A stretch of DNA of 24,306 nucleotides from a virus. Under the pieces are notes generated by a model. The model ran no database searches. It was not told the origin of the DNA and saw nothing but the letters and a program-made list of their open reading frames with translations. The stretch lies in the IMG/VR virus record IMGVR_UViG_3300029448_000426, positions 1 through 24,306 of that record. One strand, 5' to 3'. The translations under genes and the position numbers were made by a program. Shown piece after piece: positions 17,586 to 23,539 of the stretch (position 1 is the first letter of the stretch; each line of letters begins with the position of its first letter).

Positions 17586-18023
17586 TTACCTTCCTTTGTA
17601 AAAAATATGTTGACCTATTTTAGTAGTCTTTTTCATCTTCTTATTCCAATACGGATTAACATAGTCCGCATGATAGTGATCTGCACCCTTCGTGTAGTTT
17701 GTCTTTGATTTAGAATATGTTATTATTAATGCCTCATTCCACCGCGGATGCTTACTTGCTTTCTTGATTCCGTCTTCAACCTTAATATTATTCCAACACG
17801 AAAATTGAAGGTGGCGTAAACACTCGTCGACATAAGTTGACCTTCGTTTCTTAGCACGATTGTGAATTACTTCATAAACCGCTTCCATCGAACCTTTGTG
17901 ATACTCACCACCAGCTTCCATAATTAGAGTAGCTGCCACGACCTCTTGTTCAAAGTCTGCTTGCACAAAACAAACAAAACCCAAAACAACTGCTAATATT
18001 AGAATGAATATTGTCTTAATCAT
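17586..18023 (-). CDS. Secreted SleB-type cell wall hydrolase, probable endolysin
   Basis: 145 residues. A signal sequence or signal anchor is clear: MIKTIFILILAVVLGFVCFV followed by QA and DFEQ. The mature part is the SleB/CwlJ (Hydrolase_2) domain: VVAATLIMEAGGEYHKGSME with the probable catalytic Glu36, AVYEVIHNRAKKR, FSCWNN, GADHYHADYVNPYWNKK and a closing KIGQHIFYKG. These enzymes cleave peptidoglycan, and related ones serve as endolysins in marine phages. Export by the host Sec system would make it independent of a large-hole holin, as with SAR or signal-peptide endolysins. A TTGACA-N17-TAATAT promoter ends only 6 nt before the ATG, so the mRNA may be leaderless; no Shine-Dalgarno sequence is present. 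Confidence 0.88.
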   Translation of the reverse strand: MIKTIFILILAVVLGFVCFVQADFEQEVVAATLIMEAGGEYHKGSMEAVYEVIHNRAKKRRSTYVDECLRHLQFSCWNNIKVEDGIKKASKHPRWNEALIITYSKSKTNYTKGADHYHADYVNPYWNKKMKKTTKIGQHIFYKGR

Positions 18024-20078: not shown

Positions 20079-20939
20079 ATGGCTATTAAAATAAGACAAT
20101 CGAACGGTCTAACAGCGACAATGGATTCTCCAAACGCTCCTCAAGACTTGAGTAATCCTCTGATTGGGCCTAATTTATCCACAACCGGATCAAACGAATC
20201 TCCGTTATTCCATATTGACATGGACAATAACTGGAAATCAGTCTATCCTGTTGGATCAATATATATTAATGCAACTGATTCAACTAACCCATCGACCTTA
20301 ATTGGATTTGGTACTTGGGAGAGTTTCGGTAAAGGACGCATATTAGTGGGTCATAACGAGTCAAATAATGACTCTCCGGCAGTTGTACAATCAATTACTG
20401 GAACAGAAGGCCCGAGTGGCAACTTGTTTTCAATAATTTTCAAACATACACATGAGTATGCACCTGGCCAAAGAGTAACACTTTCTGGAATAAGCGGAAT
20501 GGCGGGTGTCAATCCCAATCAAGAGTGGACTATTAACCGGCTTGGTAGCTTAGGTGGAGCAGCTAACGATAAAGCAATAACACTCGAAACAACTGGCCTG
20601 ACAAGAGATGGGACTAATGCTCCAACTCTAACCGAGGCTAAAGCTCGATTTGCGGGTACAGAGTTTGGCGGGTTTAATACTTCAAACGGATATAGTGGTA
20701 ACATATCGCATAAACTCACTATTAATGAAATGCCGAAGCACCAACACCAAACAATAGATTACAACGAGGCATTAAGTGGTCTAGGAAGGTGGACAGGTTA
20801 TATCGACGGAACTCGCGCAACTTATACACACTATGTCACAGGTGGTGGTTTGGATCGGCTAGCTTTTCAAGGTGAGGGTGAACCACACAATAATTTACAA
20901 TCTTATATTACAGCATATATTTGGCGGAGAACGGCATAA
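20079..20939 (+). CDS. Tail collar / gp10-C-like fibre or baseplate tip protein 1
   Basis: 286 residues. A collar domain of the gp10 C-terminal/phage tail collar type is split by an insert. First half: VYPVGSIYINATDSTNPSTL, then GFGTWESFGKGRILVG (~54-92). Second half: SHKLTINEMPKHQHQ and a closing PHNNLQSYITAYIWRRTA (~233-286). Between them, at about 110-190, is an insert with APGQRVTLSGISG and VNPNQEWTI that recurs in the third paralogue. These domains form trimeric tips on virions that touch or attach to the host surface. The N-terminal ~50 residues are polar and unlike the next two copies. It is joined to the next gene by TAATG. Confidence 0.83.
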   Translation: MAIKIRQSNGLTATMDSPNAPQDLSNPLIGPNLSTTGSNESPLFHIDMDNNWKSVYPVGSIYINATDSTNPSTLIGFGTWESFGKGRILVGHNESNNDSPAVVQSITGTEGPSGNLFSIIFKHTHEYAPGQRVTLSGISGMAGVNPNQEWTINRLGSLGGAANDKAITLETTGLTRDGTNAPTLTEAKARFAGTEFGGFNTSNGYSGNISHKLTINEMPKHQHQTIDYNEALSGLGRWTGYIDGTRATYTHYVTGGGLDRLAFQGEGEPHNNLQSYITAYIWRRTA

Positions 20940-21388
20940 TGGCATTCGTTGGACGAGTAACTAGTGGACAAGAATTAACACAAGCACAATTAGACAATAA
21001 CTTTTTATGTCATTATCCGGTTGGTGCAATATACATGAATGCTAACAATCCAAATAGTCCAAATACTTACATCGGCTATGGAACTTGGAAAAAATTTGCT
21101 GAAGGACGGGTTCTTCTTGGGGAAGGTACTGGCTTTTCGGCGGGTAGCACTGGAGGTTCTTTATCACACACTTTAACCACTGGTGAAATACCGTCACATT
21201 CACATCCGCCTGCTGATGCAAATTCTAACAAGGAAGAACAAAGACGAGGTTACGGTGCCCTACAGTTTAAGAGCGTTGCTGGCAAAGGTAATAACATAAA
21301 AAATTCGTCTTTTGCAGGTGGAGATTTATCACACAATAATGTACAGCCTTATATAACCGTTTATATGTGGGAAAGGACAGCAACATAA
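20939..21388 (+). CDS. Tail collar / gp10-C-like protein 2 (minimal copy)
   Basis: 149 residues from the ATG in the TAATG junction. It begins MAFVGRVTSGQELTQAQLDN, a short N-terminal attachment motif, then HYPVGAIYMNANNPNSPNTY, GYGTWKKFAEGRVLLGEG, SLSHTLTTGEIPSHSHPP and SHNNVQPYITVYMWERTA. It has the same collar core as its neighbours but no insert between the halves, so it shows the basic unit. Closest in layout to the smallest tail-collar proteins. Confidence 0.85.
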   Translation: MAFVGRVTSGQELTQAQLDNNFLCHYPVGAIYMNANNPNSPNTYIGYGTWKKFAEGRVLLGEGTGFSAGSTGGSLSHTLTTGEIPSHSHPPADANSNKEEQRRGYGALQFKSVAGKGNNIKNSSFAGGDLSHNNVQPYITVYMWERTAT

Positions 21389-22191
21389 TGGCAGTCAATT
21401 TATTAGCAGATAAAAAACCTCTTACTTATACAGAGTTTGACAAAAACTTTACCGATCTTTATCCTATTGGAACAGTTATCTGTACGACAGCACACTCTAC
21501 TGCAGGGGCTTGGCAAACAGCTCTTGGATTTGGTACTTGGGAAGTTTATTCCGCGCAGAGAAGTATTGTAGGAGTTGATGCAGAAGGCTCTACTACAGCA
21601 AACTCAACTGGCCCTTATAGACAACCTGGCGTTACTTTCACTGGAACTGCACAGAACAATAGAAGTATAACTTCAGCGCGAGCAACAAGTGCAACACAAA
21701 TAGAATTATCACTTAATTCATTGAGTAACAGAGCTAATGAGGAATTTTCTGTTGGCCAAAAAATTACAACTTCTGGCTTGACTGGAGGTAGTAATCCCAA
21801 TGGAACATTTACAATTTCAGACGTAAATAGTAATAATACTAGTATCAGCATAACGGTCTCAGGCGAGACCAGTGGTACGGAATACGGAACTACAAATGCA
21901 CGATATGATTTATTCACGGCCGAGGAAACAGGTGGTTCAACTGAACATACACTGACTATAAGTGAAATGCCAAGACACGATCATCAGATTGTGAATGGCA
22001 ATTCTCAATTTGCAAAAGTAAAAGCAGTTGACCAACAATATGGTGGATTTTTTGGAAACACAAAAGAACCAGGCTCAACGGTTGGAAGTGGGGGCGGCAA
22101 TGATTATGAAACATCTTCAGTTGGAAATGACGAAGCTCATAATAATTTAATGCCATATAAAGTGGTTTATATGTATAAAAGGATAGGATAA
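21388..22191 (+). CDS. Tail collar / gp10-C-like fibre tip protein 3
   Basis: 267 residues from the ATG in the TAATG junction. The start, LTYTEFDKNFTDLYPIGTVI, resembles the N terminus of copy 2 (LTQAQLDNNF). The core reads GFGTWEVYSAQRSIVGVD, EHTLTISEMPRHDHQ and AHNNLMPYKVVYMYKRIG. An insert at about 88-172 contains SVGQKITTSGLTG and SNPNGTFTISDV, alignable with GQRVTLSGISG and NPNQEWTI of copy 1, and looks like a small beta-sandwich. The end overlaps the holin start (TAATG). Likely an adhesin tip or alternative tip. Confidence 0.83.
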   Translation: MAVNLLADKKPLTYTEFDKNFTDLYPIGTVICTTAHSTAGAWQTALGFGTWEVYSAQRSIVGVDAEGSTTANSTGPYRQPGVTFTGTAQNNRSITSARATSATQIELSLNSLSNRANEEFSVGQKITTSGLTGGSNPNGTFTISDVNSNNTSISITVSGETSGTEYGTTNARYDLFTAEETGGSTEHTLTISEMPRHDHQIVNGNSQFAKVKAVDQQYGGFFGNTKEPGSTVGSGGGNDYETSSVGNDEAHNNLMPYKVVYMYKRIG

Positions 22192-22673
22192 TGTTTGGAT
22201 TAGTAACAATGTTATTATCAACACTTGGTGCCACAGGTATGGGATCAATGTTAAAAATCGTAGGTGGTATTTTTCAGTCAATGAACGATGCCCGAGAAGC
22301 AAAACAAAAAAGAGAAATGGCTCGAGACTTGGCTTCCCAAAAGGCTGATGTTGAGTTTCAGAAAGCCGTATTTGGAGAAGCAAATGAAGATACATCTAGG
22401 TTTACACGGGCTACTCGGCGTTTTATTGCTCTTATCGGCATGCTCAACTTTTTCGCCATCTCAGTCCTCTGTACGCTCTACCCCACCATTGAACTCATCA
22501 CATTCACACCCCCTGAGCAAAAACAAGCAGTTGACCTCTTATGGGGACTCGTACACATACCGTATGGAAACTCAGAAACCGTTGCAATTACAACAGGACA
22601 CATATCGCTTGTCGCTATCTCCACTCTCGGAGCAATCATCGGATTCTACTTCACTCCCGGCGGTAAAAAATAA
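22191..22673 (+). CDS. Holin-like membrane protein (GTA holin 3TM type)
   Basis: 160 residues with three hydrophobic segments: LVTMLLSTLGATGMGSMLKI (~4-23), RFIALIGMLNFFAISVLCTL (~77-96) and HISLVAISTLGAIIGFYFTP (~137-156), separated by a charged helix (NDAREAKQKREMARDLASQK). This matches the layout of the GTA_holin_3TM family, which includes phage holins that permeabilise the inner membrane. It overlaps the preceding fibre gene by TAATG. From codon 65 onward a lipoprotein gene is encoded in the +1 frame, and in that stretch third codon positions become notably C-rich. The family name is likely but the similarity is mainly in topology. Confidence 0.78.
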   Translation: MFGLVTMLLSTLGATGMGSMLKIVGGIFQSMNDAREAKQKREMARDLASQKADVEFQKAVFGEANEDTSRFTRATRRFIALIGMLNFFAISVLCTLYPTIELITFTPPEQKQAVDLLWGLVHIPYGNSETVAITTGHISLVAISTLGAIIGFYFTPGGKK

Positions 22674-22728
22674 AAGAGTTTGGTTATTTGAGCATGAATC
22701 ACTGTGGGAAGCGTTTAAAACAAGGTAA
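22384..22728 (+). CDS. Nested lipoprotein gene, Rz1-like outer spanin candidate
   Basis: 114 residues, read in the +1 frame relative to the holin gene, inside which most of it lies. The ATG at 22384 has GGAGAAG 3-9 nt upstream. The sequence begins MKIHLGLHGLLGVLLLLSAC, a signal peptide ending in a perfect lipobox Leu-Ser-Ala-Cys20. Ser21 follows, which does not give inner-membrane retention, so the lipoprotein should reach the outer membrane. The mature part is rich in Ser, Pro, Thr and Gln, like Rz1 proteins. The last 18 residues (KRVWLFEHESLWEAFKTR) extend beyond the holin stop and explain the otherwise empty gap before the next gene, whose ribosome binding site follows directly. C-rich third positions of the holin frame supply the second positions of its Ser, Pro and Thr codons. 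Rz1 genes usually nest in Rz, not in a holin. Lipoprotein is convincing; spanin role is inferred. Confidence 0.75.
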   Translation: MKIHLGLHGLLGVLLLLSACSTFSPSQSSVRSTPPLNSSHSHPLSKNKQLTSYGDSYTYRMETQKPLQLQQDTYRLSLSPLSEQSSDSTSLPAVKNKRVWLFEHESLWEAFKTR

Positions 22729-22736
22729 AGGTAGGT

Positions 22737-23021
22737 ATGCAAGGAGATATATTAAACTTCATTAATCAAGTAGGAGTACCGATTACGGTAGCTCTTGGTG
22801 TGGGTTGGTTTCTTTTTATTATTCTTAAATTTATTCTCGCTCAGGTTAAGGATCAGATCGATGGTATTTCTGCATCTTTAATCGGATTAGAAAACAAATG
22901 CGATGTTATGAACAATGACATTGTAAAAATCGATGCGCTTTTCTCAAGTGCTTTCGGTGTTGAACCAAACCTTGATCGCGTTGCAGCGAGTGAGGGCAAA
23001 GAAGATTGTAGGGACGACTAA
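22737..23021 (+). CDS. Membrane-anchored coiled-coil protein 1 (possible inner spanin or holin partner)
   Basis: 94 residues. One N-terminal transmembrane segment, PITVALGVGWFLFIILKFIL (~15-34), is followed by a helix with heptad character (DQIDGISASLIGLENKCDVM, NNDIVKIDALF) and a polar acidic end. An AGGTAGGT ribosome binding site precedes the ATG. It follows the nested lipoprotein by 8 nt and overlaps the next gene (TAATG), which has the same layout. Single-span plus coiled coil is the topology of inner spanins such as Rz and also of small holin-like proteins (BhlA type). Function not settled. Confidence 0.75.
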   Translation: MQGDILNFINQVGVPITVALGVGWFLFIILKFILAQVKDQIDGISASLIGLENKCDVMNNDIVKIDALFSSAFGVEPNLDRVAASEGKEDCRDD

Positions 23022-23308
23022 TGAGTGGATACGAATTTAATCACTGGGCTGACATGATAAGTCAGTATGGGTTTCCAATCATCGCACTAATGCTTACTGG
23101 ATACTTTATCTGGTATGTATGGAAGTGGGTAACAAAAGAAGTAAAACCTGCTTTAAGTGCGTGTGGAGGTTCACTTGGTAAACTTAAAAAACAAGTTCAG
23201 TCATTGGATAACGATATGATTCGTTTGAATATGAAACTGAAAATATTGATTCAAGAACGTCACATCATTGACAAGCATCAAGAACGGTGTGATACATCGT
23301 CAGACTAA
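23021..23308 (+). CDS. Membrane-anchored coiled-coil protein 2, paralogue-like to its neighbour
   Basis: 95 residues. The N terminus (HWADMISQYGFPIIALMLTG, YFIWYVWKWV) gives one transmembrane segment at ~18-37, followed by a charged coiled coil (LGKLKKQVQSLDNDMIRLNM, KLKILIQERHIID). The arrangement GFPIIALMLTGYF matches GVPITVALGVGWF of the preceding gene, suggesting duplication. It is the last gene of the rightward block, before a strong terminator. Probably a partner of the neighbouring membrane protein in lysis or in membrane modification. Confidence 0.75.
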   Translation: MSGYEFNHWADMISQYGFPIIALMLTGYFIWYVWKWVTKEVKPALSACGGSLGKLKKQVQSLDNDMIRLNMKLKILIQERHIIDKHQERCDTSSD

Positions 23309-23341: not shown

Positions 23342-23539
23342 CTACTTCTTTGAAGTAGTTTTTCTCTTGCGAGTAGGTTTCTTTTCAAGATCAGCTTTTA
23401 ACTCGTTGAGCTCATTTTGCGCGACTTCAGCAAGTTGTTTTGCTTCCTCGACAAGAACATTCAACTTCTTGATATTGTTACGTGCAACTAGTGCACCTGT
23501 AACTACACCCACAAGAAAAGATACGATAATCGTAATCAT
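23342..23539 (-). CDS. Small single-span membrane protein with coiled coil and basic tail
   Basis: 65 residues. An N-terminal membrane segment (ITIIVSFLVGVVTGALVA) is followed by a coiled coil (KLNVLVEEAKQLAEVAQNEL) and a strongly basic end (KKPTRKRKTTSKK). An AAGGAAAAT ribosome binding site precedes the ATG. The topology resembles small phage membrane proteins near lysis genes, but no family is recognised. Confidence 0.75.
   Translation of the reverse strand: MITIIVSFLVGVVTGALVARNNIKKLNVLVEEAKQLAEVAQNELNELKADLEKKPTRKRKTTSKK

Follow-up and report, generated by a model that had tools for sequence, protein, structure and literature searches.

A predicted lipoprotein gene nested in the +1 frame of a holin-like gene in marine myoviruses and podoviruses

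Background

In a survey of 677 phages, four spanin architectures have been distinguished: the o-spanin gene is embedded in the i-spanin gene, the two genes overlap, the two are separated, or the spanin is unimolecular (PMC6139136). A survey from 2025 keeps the same classes (PMC12596118), and in the part of the literature that was searched an i-spanin gene is the only place where an o-spanin gene is found embedded (PMC6139136, PMC12596118). For 91 of the 677 phages, whose hosts are Gram-negative, no spanin was found (13%); marine T4-like phages account for many of the 91, and the 2018 survey raised the question of another route of outer-membrane disruption (PMC6139136).

In lambda Rz/Rz1 (Kongari et al. 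2018, PMC6139136), as proposed for the locus described here, an outer-membrane lipoprotein is encoded within a larger gene for a membrane lysis protein, in its +1 frame and on the same strand, with an internal start and a short mature part of low complexity. However, the enclosing protein of the present locus has C-terminal transmembrane (TM) segments instead of a single N-terminal TM followed by a periplasmic coil, the candidate partner is encoded elsewhere, and no sequence homology between lambda Rz1 and the nested protein was shown. The nested gene most likely works like an embedded o-spanin but lacks the defining feature of that architecture, an i-spanin gene as the enclosing gene. Overlapped and separated spanins (P2; T4 pseT.3/pseT.2) consist of a lipoprotein and an N-terminal-TM coiled-coil protein with a gene each, as would be the case here, and T4-like lysis genes are often unclustered (PMC6139136), but none of these systems has its o-spanin gene overprinted on a holin-like gene. 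The unimolecular spanin T1 gp11 is also a phage outer-membrane lipoprotein acting in lysis (PMC6139136) but has a C-terminal TM, whereas inspection of the nested proteins revealed no C-terminal hydrophobic stretch. Antiholins embedded in holin genes are known as well (PMC9025707); in contrast to the nested product, they are not lipoproteins. An o-spanin or any lipoprotein nested in a holin was not found in the literature searched, which is too partial for asserting priority. A preliminary description of the locus had stated that such nesting would be a new lysis-gene layout; the names holin and spanin are both read from sequence.

Results and discussion

The nested reading frame and its surroundings

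The locus is part of a 24.3-kb virus fragment (the window, 24,306 nucleotides), of which one strand was read from 5' to 3' (Table 1). The window contains T4-like tail, baseplate, and ssDNA-binding genes, and its tape-measure-like protein matches, among isolates, only Methylophilales phage Melnitz and its sisters (30% identity). Three consecutive genes at 20079-22191 share similar C-termini (HNNxQPYI / HNNLMPYK), with the third matching the Gp10_C domain, and are probably duplicated tail-fibre or baseplate tips; the stop of the third overlaps the start of the enclosing gene at 22191. The N-terminal hydrophobic stretch of the PF07486 hydrolase (17586-18023) suggests a signal-anchor or secreted endolysin, and homologues of this hydrolase are encoded just upstream of the holin-like gene in two relatives (loci L002 and L070).

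Table 1. Features of the locus, in positions of the window
Feature	Position	Strand	Description	Basis
Enclosing gene	22191..22673	+	160-aa predicted 2-3 TM inner-membrane protein, probable holin	ORF, TM segments, AlphaFold2 model, conserved family, weak GTA_holin_3TM link
Shine-Dalgarno-like GGAGAAG of the nested gene	22374..22380	+		sequence
Nested +1-frame lipoprotein gene	22384..22728	+	114 aa, proposed o-spanin	open frame, lipobox, stop depletion
Signal peptide of the nested gene	22384..22440	+	19 aa, MKIHLGLHGLLGVLLLLSA	sequence
Lipobox LSAC	22432..22443	+	residues 17-20; Cys codon (predicted lipidation) 22441-22443	
Mature Ser/Gln/Pro-rich periplasmic part (predicted)	22441..22725	+	95 aa in the window	
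Tail of the nested gene past the enclosing stop	22674..22728	+	C-terminus HESLWEAFKTR	
N-terminal TM + coiled-coil protein	22737..23021	+	94 aa; possible i-spanin or small holin	phrog_18771
Paralogue of the 22737 gene product	23021..23308	+	95 aa	phrog_18771; weak phrog_4898 holin match, E 0.001
N-terminal TM + coiled-coil protein, candidate i-spanin	23342..23539	-	65 aa	phrog_3879; weak match to Rz-like spanin phrog_739, E 0.0056
Cell-wall hydrolase, probable endolysin	17586..18023	-	N-terminal hydrophobic signal	PF07486

The nested frame (+1 relative to 22191-22673) starts with a plain ATG at 22384-22386, which is preceded by a Shine-Dalgarno sequence, and comprises 114 codons up to the stop at 22726-22728. 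The predicted product begins with MKIHLGLHGLLGVLLLLSAC, followed by the cleavage site and STFSPSQSS..., which is a textbook lipoprotein signal. The coordinates given in the preliminary description, which had pointed out the ATG, GGAGAAG, and the signal peptide with LSAC, are exact. It had also noted the tail, which in the window extends 55 nt beyond the enclosing stop and ends 8 nt short of the next gene (22737). As a general feature, however, the tail does not hold: it is present in only 17 of 71 distinct myovirus genes, and most of the 71 end 35 or 62 nt before the enclosing stop. The tail of the window, HESLWEAFKTR, reads HEAIWESFKVR in L002 and HQAIWE/HRAIWE in L068/L070. Across the nested family the mature part is 49 to 99 residues long and rich in Ser (24%), Gln (12%), and Pro (8%). 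A predicted tryptic peptide of the nested frame is, for example, NKQLTSYGDSYTYR.

Conservation in myoviruses and podoviruses

At least 366 relatives of the enclosing protein are present in IMG/VR, and in all of the best 80, which were analysed, the +1 frame is open and contains a lipobox. T7-like podoviruses encode a distant homologue, which is 38% identical when the profiles are aligned (hhalign E 1e-32). Its gene is flanked by scaffold and capsid genes in L086, and L114 and L115 have it in the vicinity of tail and lysis-like genes; in the podovirus set of 81 loci the +1 frame is open with a lipobox, too. Pooling all searches and removing identical genes, the same nested frame and lipobox, which the preliminary description had proposed to look for in relatives, are found in 157 of 157 distinct genes of marine T4-like myoviruses and T7-like podoviruses. 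Relatives contradicting a nested lipoprotein, such as those having stops or no lipobox in the nested frame, were sought inside this clade and none was found among the 157 genes; what varies is the start codon. Exceptions are of degree: L025 has an early stop in the mature part, leaving 49 residues, and L067 has the weaker lipobox SSGC. Every relative comes from a metagenomic fragment or a MAG contig, and the phage collection contains no isolate belonging to the clade. Direct tblastn searches of isolate phages with the proteins of the window and L046 gave no match, and the podovirus protein gave only two marginal matches, both to the un-nested outgroup described below. What emerges is a lipoprotein gene hidden within another lysis-type gene in a large uncultivated marine group. 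Gene callers tend to pass over such nested genes.

An in-frame AUG, GUG, or UUG is present 14 to 33 codons ahead of the Cys in 68 of the 71 myovirus genes and in all 67 podovirus genes. An ATG at position -19 or -20 combined with a 5-base Shine-Dalgarno-type motif is found in 28 of the distinct myovirus genes, while 56 of the 67 podovirus genes have an ATG at -31 from the Cys of the first lipobox site, accompanied in 49 of them by a Shine-Dalgarno match of 4-5 bases. In the three remaining myovirus genes (L032, L033, and L035) none of these codons was found in the expected stretch, and variants with D-K-D in the enclosing protein have ATA or ACA in place of the ATG of the window. Both hint at non-AUG initiation or another start. 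The L032 locus without the usual nested start is L032:1858-2343. Programmed frameshifting was set aside in favour of internal initiation given that an in-frame AUG is present in many genes and that a good Shine-Dalgarno-type motif goes with it in 28 of those from myoviruses; in addition, stops in the upstream +1 frame close it ahead of the lipobox in many relatives.

The enclosing gene

The enclosing protein is small, with an N-terminal helix and two C-terminal TMs at about residues 76-96 and 131-153 by hydropathy; an AlphaFold2 model of low confidence (pLDDT 60) has helices at 2-48, 66-96, and 135-153. Members of GTA_holin_3TM (PF11351) are built in the same way, with two to three TMs. Pfam, PHROG, and NCBIfam gave no firm name for the enclosing gene, which is below every curated holin cut-off. 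The GTA_holin_3TM model matched two of 26 members (best E 0.021) and gave no match in five records. The best lead to a holin is an hhalign comparison with eight PF11351 members (E 2.6e-4, probability 42%), in which the similarity is a short local match around the first TM, below the family cut-off. The RcGTA putative holin rcc00556 presumably belongs with PF11351. It has been named as a putative holin, but even for this protein direct evidence of lytic activity is lacking (PMC3423380).

An endolysin homologue is encoded less than 4 kb from the enclosing gene in seven myovirus loci, and L002 and L070 have a lysis cassette; podoviruses such as L086 carry the enclosing gene between scaffold and capsid genes. 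Because of the lysis context in some relatives holin is the most likely name of the enclosing gene, and from its topology together with weak profile matches and lysis genes near part of the loci we would place this assignment somewhat above even odds. The label holin of the preliminary description is thus in line with the topology and the GTA_holin_3TM lead but not with any curated cut-off. Alternatively, the enclosing protein could be another inner-membrane lysis protein, an antiholin or an unusual i-spanin-like partner, and a small protein encoded nearby could be the holin. The failure to reach the curated cut-off of any holin model, the separate 56-aa two-TM gene alongside in L114, and the weak match of the tandem paralogues downstream to a holin family would fit with this, but the topology and the weak profile-profile link to GTA_holin_3TM do not, and C-terminal TMs are unlike the usual i-spanin. 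It is a possibility to be taken seriously, if not a probable one. The 56-aa protein of L114 (L114:4469-4639), encoded right after the pair of holin-like and lipoprotein genes, is possibly another holin or antiholin.

Function of the nested lipoprotein and candidate partners

The nested proteins share with o-spanins a signal peptide with a lipobox, a short mature part, and the absence of Asp at position +2 after the Cys. This residue is Ser, Gln, Leu, Val, Ala, or Pro but never Asp in the 157 distinct genes (Ser in the window), and according to the Lol +2 sorting rule, which is established for E. coli and might differ in the hosts here, this would be compatible with sorting to the outer membrane. 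In PHROG the nested protein has two matches in all, both to Rz-like spanin families but weak (E 0.025 and 0.06), and the signal peptide may explain them; the podovirus nested protein matched a spanin PHROG with E 0.13. Calling the protein Rz1-like, as in the preliminary description, is appropriate for the topology, with the function of a spanin being a proposal.

Candidate i-spanins are encoded close by in many loci. In the closest relative, L002, an endolysin gene (phrog_938, E 7e-17) is followed by a 59-aa N-terminal-TM coiled-coil gene and the holin/lipoprotein pair. The 59-aa protein belongs to phrog_3879, matches the Rz-like phrog_739 (E 0.008), and is a homologue of the product of 23342..23539. 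A 73-aa N-terminal-TM coiled-coil gene directly follows the enclosing stop in L028, L032, and L033, and the L032 protein matches Rz-like spanins with E 5.6e-4. The two tandem paralogues at 22737-23308, both phrog_18771, have homologues downstream in 38 of 81 myovirus loci each. In podoviruses related to L115 and L154, two N-terminal-TM coiled-coil genes precede the pair. Where the flanking sequence is long enough, such a candidate is nearby in 40 of the 61 loci from myoviruses and 13 of the 46 from podoviruses, and an i-spanin gene that is constantly linked was not found among these. A podovirus 74-aa N-terminal-TM gene has homologues elsewhere in three podovirus records of the scaffold/capsid type (E 5e-5 to 2e-4), which does not identify the i-spanin. 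An N-terminal-TM protein with the motif NSEFRIKWPRGE(L/I)GSLPADA (phrog_20984) is encoded beside the holin-like gene in both a myovirus (L071:4806-5168) and a podovirus (L115:3454-3786).

Judged from its sequence features and from the lysis genes near part of the loci, the nested protein is probably an outer-membrane lipoprotein; its likeliest role, at odds moderately above even, is that of the o-spanin in a two-component spanin. Ribosomes on the enclosing gene would then produce a small inner-membrane protein, probably a holin of the 3-TM type, and internal initiation at the ATG at 22384 with its own Shine-Dalgarno sequence would yield the lipoprotein precursor in the +1 frame. After export the precursor would be cleaved in front of Cys20 and receive its lipid, and with Ser and not Asp at +2 it would be directed to the outer membrane. 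The endolysin would clear the peptidoglycan, and the lipoprotein would pair as o-spanin with an inner-membrane N-terminal-TM coiled-coil protein, the pair disrupting the outer membrane. To this explanation as a whole, a holin-like gene with a nested o-spanin lipoprotein gene, we assign a probability of about 0.68. If it is right, the +1 frame of holin-like genes would be a place to look for missing spanins.

The nested protein could also be a real outer-membrane lipoprotein but not a spanin, being instead similar to colicin lysis proteins (bacteriocin release), or involved in superinfection exclusion, or a regulator of the enclosing holin. It is short with a variable mature part of low complexity, its matches to spanin profiles are weak, and no i-spanin is constantly linked, all of which would be expected in this case. 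However, endolysin, N-terminal-TM coiled-coil, and Rz-like genes adjoin in several relatives, and both the length of the mature part and its Ser/Gln/Pro-rich composition are like those of o-spanins. Such a role is thus unlikely although it keeps some weight. Still less probable seems a more far-reaching version of the o-spanin reading, according to which a marine lineage that extends over myoviruses and podoviruses overprinted an outer-membrane lysis lipoprotein on a holin gene with the enclosing protein, or no dedicated i-spanin, as partner. If overprinting on a holin is true, a single stretch of DNA would encode the lysis step at the inner membrane as well as that at the outer membrane.

Selection on the nested frame

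The conserved Cys alone is no evidence for a lipoprotein because the conserved I-G-M-L/S of the enclosing protein reads x-x-Cys in the +1 frame. The lipobox is partly fixed by the enclosing protein, and any test must therefore rest on synonymous choices. The C-rich third positions of the enclosing frame, which had been pointed out for the window, are a property of the family: in 71 distinct genes third-position C rises from 14% before to 35% inside the overlap. When synonymous codons were redrawn according to the usage of each phage, the overlap stayed open in 0 to 1 of 2000 redraws per gene, with a lipobox in 4%. A stricter shuffle of codons within the region, which retains the C-rich bias, left on average 16% of redraws per gene open and 8% with a lipobox. 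Thus, the C bias could explain the openness of a single gene but not that of 157 genes. Among 39 myovirus representatives, which are at most 90% identical, one +1 stop was observed in the overlap where 240 were expected, and 16 podovirus representatives have none (75 expected). The controls are also depleted of stops, but mildly: in the +2 frame of the same stretch 91 were observed versus 156 expected (myoviruses) and 15 versus 35 (podoviruses), and in the upstream +1 frame 106 versus 193 and 31 versus 39, respectively.

Synonymous variation in the enclosing frame, whose suppression the preliminary description had proposed to measure, is lowered only inside the overlap, to 0.71 of the expectation, compared with 0.91 ahead of it and 1.02 beyond it (Mann-Whitney before versus within, p = 1e-5, which is indicative only as the loci are related). 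Ratios near 1 outside the overlap mean that silent sites are near saturation, so relatedness explains little. At the A, L, I, and G lipobox codons of the enclosing frame the ratio drops to 0.04-0.28, with minima of 0.04 at Ala and Leu. For the Gly ahead of the Cys, 80 of 80 loci use GGG or GGC (66 GGG and 5 GGC in the 71 distinct myovirus genes), whereas elsewhere GGG and GGC make up 25% of the Gly codons and GGT and GGA 75%. With the enclosing protein held fixed, simulated nested proteins are 0.333 +/- 0.008 identical in myoviruses and 0.284 +/- 0.009 in podoviruses; the observed identities of 0.475 and 0.480 exceed this by about 18-22 standard deviations. The nested frame is far beyond chance, and the sequence data leave hardly any doubt that the nested lipoprotein gene is functional.

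The lipobox has moved in part of the podoviruses. In 21 genes the enclosing protein has Gly or Ala following I-G-M, by which the nested Cys codon becomes TGG (Trp). These genes and three others with Cys at that residue have a lipobox ending in GC five codons upstream. All 24 relocated genes use AGG or CGG for the second Arg there; among the 43 others this codon gives a nested Gly or Ala in 16. In turn, the Gly codon of the abandoned site is freed: it is GGA or GGT in 16 of the 24 genes versus none of the 43 in which the site is in use, and compatible with a lipobox in 8 of 24 versus 43 of 43, a contrast that is partly built in since the definition of the first site includes this position and that, given the relatedness of the loci, is statistically indicative only. 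Sorted by the enclosing residue alone, GGA or GGT is present in 13 of 21 genes with Gly or Ala versus 3 of 46 with Ser, Phe, or Cys. A tree of the dereplicated proteins requires three changes of site, two of which are forced by well-supported branches. As far as can be read from these genes, relocation with codon switches at both sites is the mark of selection for a lipoprotein, and we can think of no constraint at the nucleotide level that would produce it.

It could be argued that the C-rich open +1 frame is the by-product of a regulatory element, an RNA structure, or a base bias and has no product, given that 16% of the genes stay open on average when shuffled with their own codons and that the control frames likewise have fewer stops than expected. 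It is, however, hard to imagine how such a constraint would move the lipobox by opposite codon switches at two sites while keeping the lipoprotein character, raise the nested identity so far above the simulation, and recur in two types of virus whose neighbouring genes differ widely; this is very improbable. Overlapping ORFs of more than 100 aa do arise by chance and the opening would be unremarkable in one C-biased gene, but a chance frame in one phage is refuted by the stop counts, the conservation in all 157 genes, and the relocated lipobox.

Homologues without the nested frame

Profile searches with the enclosing protein revealed homologues in Roseobacter phage CRP-7 (gp70) and Vibrio phage 2.275.O (NVP2275O_289) with E 2e-8 and 5e-8, which share the T-R-R-x-I-A-L and Y-F motifs. 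As in part of the clade described here the homologous protein is followed by N-terminal-TM coiled-coil genes, but the nested frame is absent: the matching +1 stretch contains 4 to 13 stops in these two phages and in 80 CRP-7-type relatives from IMG/VR. A homologous outgroup full of stops means that the nested gene is most probably not a property of this membrane-protein fold. Most probably, going by these comparisons, it was overprinted in an ancestor of the myovirus/podovirus clade and then carried between virus types. The dual-coding lipoprotein gene of the preliminary description is thereby borne out by its conserved lipobox, stop depletion, synonymous suppression, relocation, and an outgroup without the nested frame. 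As an overlapping gene it is an unusually clean case, with a motif that moved while the function was kept, codon choice that tracks it, and homologues without the overlap for comparison. The un-nested homologues (L169-L248) belong to a very large marine group of at least 599 IMG/VR stretches. In CRP-7 itself (L167) two N-terminal-TM coiled-coil genes directly follow gp70, and gp68-gp70 are possibly an unannotated lysis module.
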